From Coriobacteriia bacterium (lineage in GTDB: Bacteria > Actinomycetota > Coriobacteriia > Anaerosomatales > Anaerosomataceae): a stretch of DNA of 64,000 nt. The notes beneath the pieces were generated by a model. That model made no database searches. It had not been told where the DNA came from and worked only from the letters and a program-made list of their open reading frames with translations. Below are positions 1 to 63,723 of the stretch, in pieces. Every line of letters begins with the position of its first letter. Within the stretch, counting starts at the first letter, position 1. Location: the NCBI GenBank assembly GCA_030651765.1, contig JAUSBY010000002.1, forward strand, positions 1 through 64,000, in the 5' to 3' direction. The position numbers were made by a program, and so were the translations under genes.

Positions 1-680
1 CCGGCCTGACCGACATCGATGGCGAGCTGCTCTTCGGCGGACTCGAGCCCGGTGTGTACACCGTGACCGAGACGCTTGAAGACGGCTGGACGAACATCAC
101 GCCGCTGTCGCAGGACGTGACCGTGGTCGATGGACAGACCGCATCGCTGTGGTTTGGCAATGTCGAGGAGTTCCTGCCGTTCACCGAACTCGATCTGGCG
201 ATCACCAAGCTCGCCAACAAGGCCGAGGCCGATCCGGGTGAGCTCATCACCTACACGCTCACGTACTGGAACACCGGCGAACTCGCGGCCTACAACTTCA
301 CCATCACCGACGACTTCGACGAGCGGTACGTGACGGTGGTCGACGCGGCCGGCGGAACTGTCGTCGGCGGCAAGATCACCTGGACGATCGCCGGTCCGCT
401 GGCGATGGAGGACGGGAAGCAGACCATCACCTACACGGTCCGCGTGAAGTCGGCTATGCCTGACGGTGTCACCAACGTCGACAACGTGGTCGTCATCGAT
501 CACCCGCTCGACAGTGATCCGTCGAACAACACCGACGATGAGCGCGTGGTCGTCCGGGTCGTCGTGGAAGAGCCGTTCCTGCCCTTCACCGGCGGCGAGT
601 ATGCACTACTGATCGCGATTGCGGCCGGTGCGGCGACGCTCGGCACGGCGCTTCGGCTCCGGCGCGATCAGGCAGCATAA
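1..680 (+). CDS. C-terminal part of LPFTG-anchored surface protein with SpaA-like and DUF11 domains (5' truncated)
   Basis: The reading frame is open from base 3, so the gene starts before the window; 225 residues are visible. The first ~45 residues resemble the end of a SpaA/prealbumin-like beta domain (a GLEPGVYTVTET-type strand). A DUF11-type extracellular repeat domain follows, with the usual 'adpGelitYTltywNtG' pattern and a late 'DPSNNTDDE' motif. The C-terminus is a classic sortase signal: LPFTG at 579-593, a hydrophobic helix, then a basic RLRRDQ tail. I infer covalent attachment to the cell envelope by a sortase, and a sortase gene lies 1.1 kb downstream. A second 'LPFTE' string near base 174 lacks the glycine and is internal. 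The role could be adhesion or cell-envelope structure; the substrate is unknown. Confidence 0.85.
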   Translation, partial: GLTDIDGELLFGGLEPGVYTVTETLEDGWTNITPLSQDVTVVDGQTASLWFGNVEEFLPFTELDLAITKLANKAEADPGELITYTLTYWNTGELAAYNFTITDDFDERYVTVVDAAGGTVVGGKITWTIAGPLAMEDGKQTITYTVRVKSAMPDGVTNVDNVVVIDHPLDSDPSNNTDDERVVVRVVVEEPFLPFTGGEYALLIAIAAGAATLGTALRLRRDQAA

Positions 681-1440: not shown

Positions 1441-1475
1441 TTTGGATCGCCCCTATCCAAGGTCCGCACGCACAT
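1437..1475 (-). CDS. 12-codon leader peptide ORF translationally coupled to the metalloprotease
   Basis: On the minus strand an ATG at 1475-1473 opens the ORF MCVRTLDRGDPK, whose TGA (1439-1437) overlaps the protease ATG (1440-1438) as ATGA. A strong Shine-Dalgarno, GGAGGA at 1490-1485, lies 9 bases upstream of the leader ATG. The protease's own Shine-Dalgarno (AGGGG) sits in the loop of a hairpin with stem TTGGAT/ATCCAA, which a ribosome translating the leader would melt. Translation of this peptide is inferred. Confidence 0.45.
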   Translation of the reverse strand: MCVRTLDRGDPK

Positions 1476-1516
1476 CGGCCCGACTCCTCCCTCTAGGCTT
1501 GGGTGGTGTCGGGCCG
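1476..1516 (-). promoter_or_regulatory. Hairpin between riboswitch aptamer and start codons (possible expression platform)
   Basis: CGGCCCGAC (1516-1508) pairs with GTCGGGCCG (1484-1476) in a perfect 9-bp stem. The loop contains the GGGAGGA Shine-Dalgarno of the leader ORF. No U-tract follows, so control of translation is more likely than transcription termination. How it switches with the aptamer cannot be settled by eye. Confidence 0.45.
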
Positions 1517-1535
1517 GCGTATCGCGTGGGCTCGA

Positions 1536-1632
1536 ACCTTCGGTAGTCCGGCTGTCGTGGGAGGGTGATCCTCCGGTAGACCCGTGACTTTGCGTGGTCG
1601 GTCTTTCGACCGTCCTTGCCTTTTCGGGAGCG
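1536..1632 (-). promoter_or_regulatory. Cyclic di-GMP-I (GEMM) riboswitch
   Basis: Read on the minus strand, the conserved GEMM-I blocks occur in order. GGCAAGG is at 1620-1614. A 5-bp stem CGGTC/GACCG is capped by a GAAA tetraloop (1607-1604). ACGCAAAGTCACGGG (1595-1581) contains the invariant ACGCAAAG. A second arm begins TCTACC and has a GGAGG/CCTCC apical stem. The tetraloop-receptor side GACAGCCGGACTACCG ends at 1541. This matches the class I c-di-GMP aptamer layout (P1b with GNRA loop, J1/2 'CGCAAAG', P2 with 'AGCCGG..UACCG'). It lies about 100 bases upstream of the secreted metalloprotease start on the same strand. Confidence is high for the aptamer; the on/off sense is unknown. Confidence 0.88.
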
Positions 1633-1704
1633 TTCCGATCTGCGCTTTTCAAGGTCTCTCACGTACACTGAGGTTATCGGCAGGGCAGCGCTGGGACTTA
1701 ACGT

Positions 1705-1728
1705 CTTCTGTGTGATTCGTCACAGAAG
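1705..1728. promoter_or_regulatory. Perfect inverted repeat in the metalloprotease/sortase divergent region
   Basis: CTTCTGTG (1705-1712) and CACAGAAG (1721-1728) form an 8-bp perfect dyad around an 8-base centre. It lies between the riboswitch transcript (leftward) and the sortase (rightward), a position that suits an operator for either. No cognate regulator is recognised. Confidence 0.4.
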
Positions 1729-1779
1729 AATGGTGAGACAGGTCACACCGCGTGCCCGATGACCGGGAGGTCGGTGGGT

Positions 1780-2448
1780 GTGAAGCGTTCAGTCAGGTGG
1801 CGCCATGCGGTGGGCAATCTGCTGCTGGGGATCTCGATCGGGCTTCTCGCCTACTACTCGCTGACGACGCTCATGGGCTGGCTCGCCCAGCGCGACCTGC
1901 GCGACCGCGCGGGGGACGTCGCCGCGTACGATTCGGGCGCACCCGAGGGCTTGCTGTCGGGCAGCGGCCCTGCGATGGACTTCAGCGGGTGGGCCGAGGA
2001 GGACCGCGTGTACTGGGATGCGCTTCCGGCGGGGGAGGCGTTTGGCCGCCTCGTGATCGTCGACATGAATATCGACGTCATGGTCATCAAGGGGGTCACT
2101 ACGGCCGACCTGCGGCAGGGGCCCGGCTGGATAGACTGGACCGATCTGCCGGGGCCGAGCGGCACATGCGGGATATCCGGTCACCGCACGACGTACGGCG
2201 CACCGTTTCGTCGGCTTGATGAGCTCACCGAGGGTGATACCATCGATCTGTACTCGCCGTATCGTCGCTATCGGTACACCGTGACGCGATCACTCGTGGT
2301 GCGACCGAGTCAGGTCGAAGTCGTGGCATCCACCGAGCGTCCATCACTTACGCTCACCGCGTGTCACCCGCCGTACAGCGCGACATACCGGCTTGCGGTG
2401 CAGGCGGATCTCGTGGAAGTGCGACGGGTGGACGAATCCACAGACTAA
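1780..2448 (+). CDS. Sortase (class E/D-like), membrane-anchored transpeptidase
   Basis: Sortases cleave the LPxTG-type signal and attach the protein to the envelope. This 222-residue protein has one N-terminal membrane segment (about residues 10-32) and a C-terminal sortase fold. The catalytic set is visible: H135 in ISGHRTTYGAPF, C195 in TLTACHPP and R204 in ATYRL. The TLxxCxP motif resembles actinobacterial class E enzymes. I chose GTG 1780 because GGGAGG (1765-1770) stands 9 bases ahead; an ATG at 1759 has no such site. The LPFTG protein at the left edge is a likely substrate. The next gene, an epimerase, begins 10 bases after the stop, so the two may be co-transcribed. Confidence 0.9.
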   Translation: MKRSVRWRHAVGNLLLGISIGLLAYYSLTTLMGWLAQRDLRDRAGDVAAYDSGAPEGLLSGSGPAMDFSGWAEEDRVYWDALPAGEAFGRLVIVDMNIDVMVIKGVTTADLRQGPGWIDWTDLPGPSGTCGISGHRTTYGAPFRRLDELTEGDTIDLYSPYRRYRYTVTRSLVVRPSQVEVVASTERPSLTLTACHPPYSATYRLAVQADLVEVRRVDESTD

Positions 2449-42075: not shown

Positions 42076-43431
42076 ATGGCCGAGAGTCAGGACCAGCGCT
42101 CGTTCCTGCTCGAGTCGTGGCTCGAGTTCCACGACATCATCGCCGCGCACCCGGAGGTGCGGCGGCTGCTGTTCGACCCGGTCACCGGACTGCCCACGAC
42201 GCCACTGCTGTTCCCGCGAATAGAGTCCCTCCTCGAGGAGCGCGGCGAGATCTCGCTGCTGTGTCTGAACGTCGTCAAGTACTCGAAGATCGAGGAGATC
42301 TACGGCTGGGAGATCTTCGACGGCGTGATGCGCGAGGCGGCGAGCGCGCTCGAGCGCATCACCGGCATGGAGCTCAGGGACAGCGACATCGTCGCGGAAC
42401 TCATGATCTCGGGCAACGCGTTCGTCGTGCTACTGTCGCCCCCGCGCACGACCGACAACATGGACGAGGACAGCCTCGAGCGGCTTGCCCGCCGGGTCGA
42501 GGACCGCGTGCGCGAGGACCTTGCCGTCGTGCTCGATCCCGCGGTCTACCCCAAGTTCGGGTGCTACGTGGGTCACACCATCGCCCGCAGTGACGACCGC
42601 GTCCGTCTGGAGCGGCTCGTGCACCTGGCGCTCGAGCGCGCGCTGGCCGACTCGGACTCGCGCGAATCACGCGATGCCGCTGCTCGCACGCAGCGGCTCG
42701 AGGAGATCATCGCAAGCGAGTCCATCCGGACGCTCGTGCACCCCATCTACCGGCTCTCCGACCTCGGCATCATCGGCTACGAGGCGCTCTCGCGCGGGCC
42801 TGCCGATAGCGAGTTCGAGCGCCCGGACAAGTTGTTCAAGGTGGCCTACGATGCCGACCTCGTGCTCAAGCTCGAGCGTATCTGCCGCAAGCGCGCATTC
42901 GAGACCGCGCGGGATCTGCCCAAGGGCCGACTTCTGTTCATCAACATCGAGCCCGAGGCGGTCGCCGATCCCGAGCTCCGCGACATCATGTTCACGACGC
43001 TACTCTCCGATGCGGCCCTCGCGCCGTCCGACGTGGTGCTCGAGATCACGGAGCGCACCGCGATCACCGATTTCTGCAGCTTCCGGGCGACGCTCGAATA
43101 CCTGCGCACGCTCGGCTTTCGGGTTGCGGTCGATGACGGTGGCGCCGGCTACGGCTCGCTGCAGTGTCTCGCCGAGGTCCACCCGGAGTGGCTCAAGATC
43201 GACATCTCGCTCGTGCGCGACATCGACACCGACGAGGTGCGCCGCAGCCTCGTCGCGAGCATGGTGACGTTCGCCGATCGGGTAGACGTGAAACTCATCG
43301 CCGAGGGTATCGAGCGCGTCGAACAGCTCACGGTGCTCCGTGCGCTCGGCGTCGAGTTCGGCCAGGGCTTCTTGTTCTGCACCCCGCAGGAGCCGTTCCC
43401 GGCCGACGAGGACGTCACACCGGTCCTGTAG
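42076..43431 (+). CDS. Degenerate GGDEF plus EAL domain protein (probable c-di-GMP phosphodiesterase)
   Basis: 451 residues, cytoplasmic. The first half is a GGDEF fold whose active site reads ISGNAF instead of GGDEF, so it is probably not a cyclase. The EAL domain (about 210-445) keeps the catalytic signature: 'GYEALSRGP', 'INIEPEA', 'LEITERT', 'DDGGAGYGSL', 'LKIDISLVRDI', 'IAEGIE' and 'GQGFLF'. It should hydrolyse c-di-GMP to pGpG. It lies 14 bases after the glycosidase-like gene. It is relevant to the c-di-GMP riboswitch at the left edge. Confidence 0.9.
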   Translation: MAESQDQRSFLLESWLEFHDIIAAHPEVRRLLFDPVTGLPTTPLLFPRIESLLEERGEISLLCLNVVKYSKIEEIYGWEIFDGVMREAASALERITGMELRDSDIVAELMISGNAFVVLLSPPRTTDNMDEDSLERLARRVEDRVREDLAVVLDPAVYPKFGCYVGHTIARSDDRVRLERLVHLALERALADSDSRESRDAAARTQRLEEIIASESIRTLVHPIYRLSDLGIIGYEALSRGPADSEFERPDKLFKVAYDADLVLKLERICRKRAFETARDLPKGRLLFINIEPEAVADPELRDIMFTTLLSDAALAPSDVVLEITERTAITDFCSFRATLEYLRTLGFRVAVDDGGAGYGSLQCLAEVHPEWLKIDISLVRDIDTDEVRRSLVASMVTFADRVDVKLIAEGIERVEQLTVLRALGVEFGQGFLFCTPQEPFPADEDVTPVL

Positions 43432-63626: not shown

Positions 63627-63723
63627 GGAGGCGGATGGGTCCTGGTGGGCTCCGCGGTCTTCAAAACCGACGTGGGGCGTGAAGAGCGTCCTGGGTGTGT
63701 TCGATTCGCACACGCCTCCGCCA
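63627..63723 (+). tRNA. selC: tRNA-Sec (selC), anticodon TCA
   Basis: 97 bases. The acceptor GGAGGCG pairs with CGCCTCC, discriminator G, encoded CCA. A 6-bp D stem GGGTCC/GGGCTC has the short TGGT loop peculiar to bacterial tRNA-Sec. The anticodon loop CTTCAAA gives TCA (63661-63663). The long variable arm GGGCGT/GCGTCC and T-arm GTGTG-TTCGATT-CGCAC complete it. The eighth acceptor pair and the outer anticodon-stem pair read G-A. Confidence 0.93.

Follow-up and report, generated by a model that had tools for sequence, protein, structure and literature searches.

A class I c-di-GMP riboswitch upstream of a predicted exported mini-zincin gene belongs to a conserved dual-riboswitch surface-protein locus in Anaerosomatales

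The 64,000 nt sequence analysed here, referred to below as the window (Coriobacteriia bacterium, order Anaerosomatales, assembly GCA_030651765.1, contig JAUSBY010000002.1, positions 1 to 64,000), carries the class I part of a conserved surface-protein circuit that is built on two riboswitches. The circuit is like that of PPEP-1 in C. difficile, with a protease that has no detectable similarity, and the two switches are predicted to respond oppositely to c-di-GMP. The initial annotation covered only half of the system, which also includes a sortase-anchored surface protein controlled by a class II switch. The riboswitches, their conservation and synteny across the order, covarying helices in the leader and a promoter motif were all found by computation. 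The genes and the aptamer are placed as follows.

3..680 (+), convergent surface protein, C-terminal 225 aa with DUF11 and an LPFTG sorting signal, truncated at the contig start
838..1440 (-), exported HEIWH protein of 200 aa, predicted small zincin protease, ATG at 1440, identified as an ORF with homologs in 50 genomes
1539..1630 (-), c-di-GMP-I (GEMM-I, RF01051) aptamer, cmscan 60.7 bits, E=2.1e-9
1759..2448 (+), sortase gene, divergent from the riboswitch-protease unit, Pfam Sortase E=3.5e-28

Class I aptamer and exported HEIWH protein

When the complete window was compared with the full Rfam collection by cmscan, RF01051 matched over its full length (model 1-87, zero non-standard pairs) on the minus strand at 1630-1539, above the gathering score of 35, which is the outcome that the initial annotation had named as support. 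The GNRA loop and the CGCAAAG, GACAGCC and CUACCGAA blocks are all found in the expected order, as had been read from the letters, and the coordinates first given (1536-1632) were correct to within 3 nt. The spacing of about 100 bases to a zinc-protease-like gene also held, the distance from the aptamer end to the ATG at 1440 being 98 nt. In a search of the whole 2.26 Mb assembly this RF01051 copy is single (E=1.8e-11). The class I c-di-GMP riboswitch is confirmed, and its binding of the ligand is predicted. That the match is due to chance or is non-functional is exceedingly improbable, given an E-value of 2e-9 in the window and, throughout the order, an unchanged position and stems that covary.

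G20 (AAAAGGCAA) and C92 (UACCGAA) are retained, and G is found at position 20 in 43/43 relatives listed. We assigned both positions by counting along the Vc2 numbering and take them to be those that select c-di-GMP. Because both are kept, the aptamer is, judged by these bases, c-di-GMP-selective and not of the cGAMP type (A20). Like other RF01051 riboswitches, the window copy is a full covariance-model match with the selectivity positions kept, but it differs from them in its target family, which is new, and in a long insert (a:a'/H, described below) predicted to bring the Shine-Dalgarno sequence to the aptamer. No published case of such a class I target family or insert, and no report of class I switches in Coriobacteriia, was found in a literature search outside which most subscription papers fell.

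Homologs of the HEIWH protein were found with strong E-values in 50/149 related genomes, the matching loci belonging to Anaerosomatales and to other Coriobacteriia/Actinobacteria MAGs. Among the 48 genomes in which the upstream DNA could be read, 44 have RF01051 directly upstream of the protease gene. A profile search of 296 genomes of the phylum added 9 homologs outside the class, 5 of which, in other classes of the phylum, also have a class I switch upstream. Since the pairing is conserved across the order and recurs in other classes of the phylum, the riboswitch and the exported HExxH gene are not chance neighbours. At one distant homolog (L208, 6234-6400) the promoter and both aptamer flanks, as read from the sequence, seem to be kept and the core is missing. 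Further class I switches of relatives (L101, L106, L107, L109, L110, L114, L115) are located upstream of other exported proteins, and in several of these the Shine-Dalgarno sequence (GAAGGTGA) is right at the aptamer 3' end, or is matched there by GCCCC.

The 200 aa protein begins with a segment that is signal-peptide-like by inspection (MKNSKRTKV..LAAGLLSSPSAASA), followed by a linker rich in Ser, Thr and Ala and then by a domain of roughly 85 aa, with HEIWH near the C-terminus and the end HEIWHIIDWRDNGVIDWGENVPPK. It has no credible sequence match in Pfam, NCBIfam or the PDB, and no homolog on viral contigs. Positions that do not vary among 42 aligned domains include H177, E178, H181, D184, W193 and E195; in the distant homologs outside the class HExxH is kept, D184 not always. 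An AlphaFold2 model of the domain, built on the same alignment (pLDDT 85), shows one helix and three strands besides the helix that carries HExxH, and the latter (model residues 62-79) has pLDDT above 90. In the model HExxH falls within the putative active-site helix, as in zincins. E195, the candidate third zinc ligand, falls in the low-confidence tail of the model.

In Foldseek the protein matches small zincins best (selecase, jannalysin, abylysin, SprT-type and MATCAP), with TM 0.5-0.6, weak E-values of 0.03-0.1 (top E 0.029) and 16-21% identity. The minigluzincins (selecase, jannalysin, abylysin) and the SprT and MATCAP zincins share the helix-sheet-helix layout with HExxH in the last helix, but the window protein differs from them in having a signal peptide, being exported, and in lacking a clear glutamate helix for the third ligand. 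No similarity to PPEP was found in the PDB sequence searches, and no PPEP is among the best 50 Foldseek matches. The HEIWH protein is predicted to be a mini-zincin, the protease assignment coming from its HExxH motif together with fold matches that are weak. The initial annotation had linked the second messenger to extracellular proteolysis; the link between riboswitch and gene is conserved, and the identity of the protease is a prediction from the same motif and fold.

Surface protein, class II switch and sortase

The surface-protein gene of the window's genome is split over two contigs, as the end of contig C4 shares 137 identical bases with the start of the window. A class II c-di-GMP switch is located on C4 (C4:256896-256983), about 60 nt upstream of the start codon of this gene. 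In a sister genome the gene is intact (L061:7265-9481) and predicts a 738 aa protein with SdrD_B, SpaA and DUF11 domains. Rfam scans of the loci of relatives detected c-di-GMP-II-GAG (RF03169) on the strand opposite the protease gene. In all 26 genomes having a linked class II switch (within about 9 kb, opposite strand), the switch precedes an LPFTG surface protein; where a locus has two class II switches, the nearer, ORF-proximal one was counted. All 26 ORFs end in LPFTG, a transmembrane or hydrophobic stretch and Arg/Lys, and converge on the protease gene. RF03169 is matched in full ahead of the partner gene, both in the window's own genome and in 26 relatives. The aptamer itself does not differ from other members of that family, and what goes beyond known RF03169 systems is that class II is paired with a protease gene under class I control, encoded on the other strand.

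An LPFTG tail is present in 12 more loci without a linked class II match, nearly all of which are cut by contig ends. EPF precedes LPFTG in almost all of the surface proteins, and no conserved cleavage site beyond EPFLPFTG was identified in them. Three loci that carry the class I switch (G030, G047, G051) have no adjacent surface protein. The four genomes with the protease but no class I switch (G032, G042, G045, G058) are also without an adjacent surface protein (Fisher p=2.6e-4, uncorrected for relatedness).

In nearly all class II leaders the terminator stem takes the 3' segment of the aptamer (GAGACCGGCCC with GGGCCGGTCTC-TTTG). Because the terminator uses the aptamer's own 3' segment, the ligand should prevent termination, and the class II switch is predicted to be an ON switch. 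No sigma28 boxes were found at the right place upstream of the class II switches.

The sortase gene adjoins the protease gene in nearly every locus. Its best NCBIfam match is class E, under the cut-off of the model, and two further sortase-domain matches occur in the window's genome. A second c-di-GMP-II switch in this genome (G000:C15:18241-18323, L167) precedes a multihaem c-type cytochrome-like gene with CxxCH repeats, and the same arrangement is seen in two other genomes (G001 and G009; L168, L174); c-di-GMP control of extracellular electron transfer via this second switch is possible. In L095 and L099 a second c-di-GMP-II match without a long ORF of its own is located about 0.5 kb upstream of the first, and these may be tandem class II switches.

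Leader folding and promoter

The promoter and the elements recognised between it and the start codon of the protease gene, all on the minus strand, are as follows.

1674..1701 (-), sigma28/WhiG-type promoter TTAAG-N15-GCCGATAA, the same element being near all aptamers examined
1635..1645 (-), element d, pairs with d' beyond hairpin H (covariation and strand swaps)
1626..1632 (-), CGCUCCC, the aptamer 5' flank and predicted anti-Shine-Dalgarno (window MFE and consensus fold)
1531..1540 (-), element a, immediately 3' of the aptamer, partner of a' (strand swaps)
1476..1516 (-), hairpin H, GGCCCGAC..GUCGGGCC (column counts)
1469..1478 (-), element d' (covariation and strand swaps)
1457..1465 (-), element a', just upstream of the Shine-Dalgarno sequence (strand swaps)
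1448..1454 (-), Shine-Dalgarno AGGGGCG of the protease gene (sequence), predicted to pair with the aptamer 5' flank

Pairings were examined in 43 leaders of class I switches by comparing cognate with strand-swapped partners among genomes; neither shuffles nor strand swaps remove the relatedness of the sequences. With that kinship retained, cognate a:a' pairs reach -15.3 kcal/mol against -12.6 when swapped and cognate d:d' pairs -18.9 against -15.6, and in neither case were any of 200 swaps as good. The d:d' columns are 83% paired, with 21 cells changed on both sides (0/500 shuffles, kinship again not removed). Hairpin H is 86% paired, and 8 of its pairs show changes on both sides, amounting to 35 such cells. 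RNAalifold, unprompted, pairs the GGG of the Shine-Dalgarno sequence with three C residues from the 5' flank of the aptamer in about 40/41 sequences, and single-sequence ensembles agree in most leaders.

The Shine-Dalgarno sequence is unpaired with probability 0.38 when a:a' is forced and 0.65 when d:d' is forced; it is less open in the a:a' state in 33 of the 43 leaders and more open in 4. The a:a' state is the more stable by a median of about 11 kcal/mol in calculations that leave out the ligand, so that dependence on the ligand would need co-transcriptional folding and its kinetics, or a pseudoknot, which the energies omit.

Three other candidates were rejected. A hairpin a':b around the Shine-Dalgarno sequence is neat in the window, but swapped strands form it as well as cognate strands do (73/200), and a P1 built from local flanks has no cognate advantage (99/300). 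A 12-codon ATG..TGA frame (1475-1437, -) overlapping the protease start was considered as a leader peptide; it is treated as part of d' because the ATGTGC is in other frames or absent in relatives.

A promoter with a -35 of T[AC]A[AG]G type and a -10 of GCCGATA type lies 43-55 nt upstream of 43/43 aptamers. It agrees with the published WhiG/flagellar promoter consensus (-35 TAAA, -10 GCCGATAA; PMC8325347). Models for FliA/WhiG score over their cut-off in 66/71 genomes, and flagellin was found in none of the 71. Both marks of a WhiG/sigma28 regulon, the -35 TAAA, -10 GCCGATAA promoter and a FliA/WhiG sigma factor, are therefore present. An exact search for TAAAG-N14-16-GCCGATA in the window's own genome found one other site. 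The WhiG-type sigma gene is located near an rpsB/tsf-like region (G000:C14:72827-73504, L189) in genomes without flagellin.

A WhiG-type sigma gene and such promoters are common to this system and to the RsiG-WhiG c-di-GMP switch. The two differ in that no RsiG was found in the window's genome with the strict motif E(X)3S(X)2R(X)3Q(X)3D ([Q/H] variants excluded), the one pattern match having Ser at the required Arg, and in that the output would be a surface-protein protease and not pili or sporulation. No RsiG was found beside the WhiG gene. Between the sortase gene and the promoter, a CRP/FNR-like inverted repeat (TGTGACGAATCACACA, window 1709-1724, -) is kept in most relatives.

Proposed circuit, alternatives and comparison with C. 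difficile

In the circuit that we propose, high c-di-GMP would turn on the LPFTG surface protein via the class II switch, the product being anchorable by the adjacent sortase, and would lower the small secreted zinc protease via the class I switch. At low c-di-GMP, production of the surface protein would stop and the protease would be made, cutting the surface protein near its anchor and freeing cells or surface material. The class I switch, transcribed from the sigma28/WhiG-type promoter, would act by translational repression. Its closing helix would be formed by the aptamer 5' flank (CUCCC) and the protease Shine-Dalgarno sequence, brought together by the hairpin a:a'/H. The ligand would steady this helix and hide the ribosome site, and the competing helix d:d' would free it. 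An OFF response is predicted for class I because the Shine-Dalgarno sequence sits in the aptamer closing helix, where the ligand should repress. We infer protease activity, class I OFF, class II ON and cleavage of the surface protein. As the protease gene is paired throughout the order with a surface protein under the opposite type of c-di-GMP switch, production and cutting of the surface anchors probably fall in opposite phases in these cells, as in C. difficile, where the enzyme is an unrelated one. We hold the two-riboswitch attachment circuit with translational repression of the protease, as proposed, to be moderately likely. The genome encodes 11 GGDEF domains for c-di-GMP signalling; one of these matches (30 bits) is in a 496 aa ORF of the window (42172-42630, +).

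Hairpin H is GC-rich, conserved and covarying, and could instead be a terminator, with the ligand choosing between H and an alternative pairing and the pairing of the Shine-Dalgarno sequence being secondary. U runs (UUUU/UUUUU) follow H in G008, G015, G019, G023 and G026, and in the distant homologs L200 and L207 a terminator is plainly recognisable after the aptamer and before the gene; the switch may therefore act on transcription. However, GAUGUGCG and not a U run comes after H in the window and in most of the order, both alternative states are predicted to contain H, and the consensus fold finds the Shine-Dalgarno sequence paired with the flank; control mainly by termination is accordingly judged unlikely, at roughly one chance in four. 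Given the clear terminators of L200 and L207, the mode of control probably differs between lineages. An ON response of class I, by which c-di-GMP would raise the protease alongside the surface protein, with the enzyme serving in maturation or turnover, has precedent in the class I switch of the B. thuringiensis cap gene (cited in PMC6366702), and the two genes are neighbours that could serve the same phase. We regard it as quite improbable, as the helix predicted on the ligand side sequesters the Shine-Dalgarno sequence and two switch classes on neighbouring genes make most sense with opposite responses.

The substrate is a separate question. The HExxH protein may cut other wall or extracellular proteins, or may not be a protease, and the three class I loci without an adjacent surface protein, the weak fold matches and the absence of an identified cleavage site beyond EPFLPFTG favour this. 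Set against it are the conservation of HExxH, the tight convergent pairing with LPFTG proteins and the joint absence of class I switch and surface protein from four genomes, which leave it with an appreciable but minor chance.

In C. difficile the secreted zinc protease ZmpI/PPEP-1 is under a class I switch, its sortase-anchored substrates are under class II switches, and the functional class I switches are OFF and the class II switches ON (PMC6366702). The same review warns against extrapolating the direction of a switch to other species (PMC6366702). The initial annotation knew of no described target of this type in an actinobacterium-like genome; ZmpI/PPEP-1 is a precedent for the target type that it did not name (PMC6366702). 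Both the window's system and that of ZmpI/PPEP-1 with CD630_28310 and CD630_32460 pair a class I HExxH protease with class II sortase-anchored proteins, and the dual arrangement at one locus was found in relatives and in the window's own genome. The protease gene neighbours one substrate gene in C. difficile and the surface-protein gene here. The window protease resembles no solved structure in sequence, and its best 50 fold matches do not include PPEP-1. The present system is further distinguished by belonging to a different phylum, by a sortase gene within the locus, by control in Anaerosomatales that is likely translational and not by a terminator, and by a sigma28-type promoter without flagella. 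It is conserved across an order, that of C. difficile in one species group, and its surface-protein cleavage is predicted.

A broader reading is that Actinomycetota evolved, independently of clostridia, an unrelated mini-zincin sheddase repressed through class I together with a class II-induced sortase-anchored substrate. Both would be held in one divergent/convergent sortase locus with a flagella-less sigma28/WhiG promoter and the Shine-Dalgarno sequence as aptamer closing helix, and would set particle attachment and release in non-motile, mineral-associated bacteria. We give this somewhat less than an even chance. Both isolates described from the order lack motility and bear pili-like appendages, and one of them forms dense clusters on ferrihydrite (PMC9686372). 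If the reading is true, a regulatory design known from a single gut pathogen has at least two origins, each with its own enzyme, and c-di-GMP riboswitches of opposite class on a sheddase and on the anchored protein that it cuts would be a general solution for controlled detachment. The circuit, if true, would also give a role to a protease family that has no name and to the LPFTG proteins conserved in Anaerosomatales, which are little-studied subsurface bacteria, and would offer a testable case in which two riboswitch classes and a WhiG-type sigma factor converge on one trait.

The far end of the window contains a tRNA-Sec gene (63627-63719, +; 68.3 bits), and the organism therefore probably uses selenocysteine.
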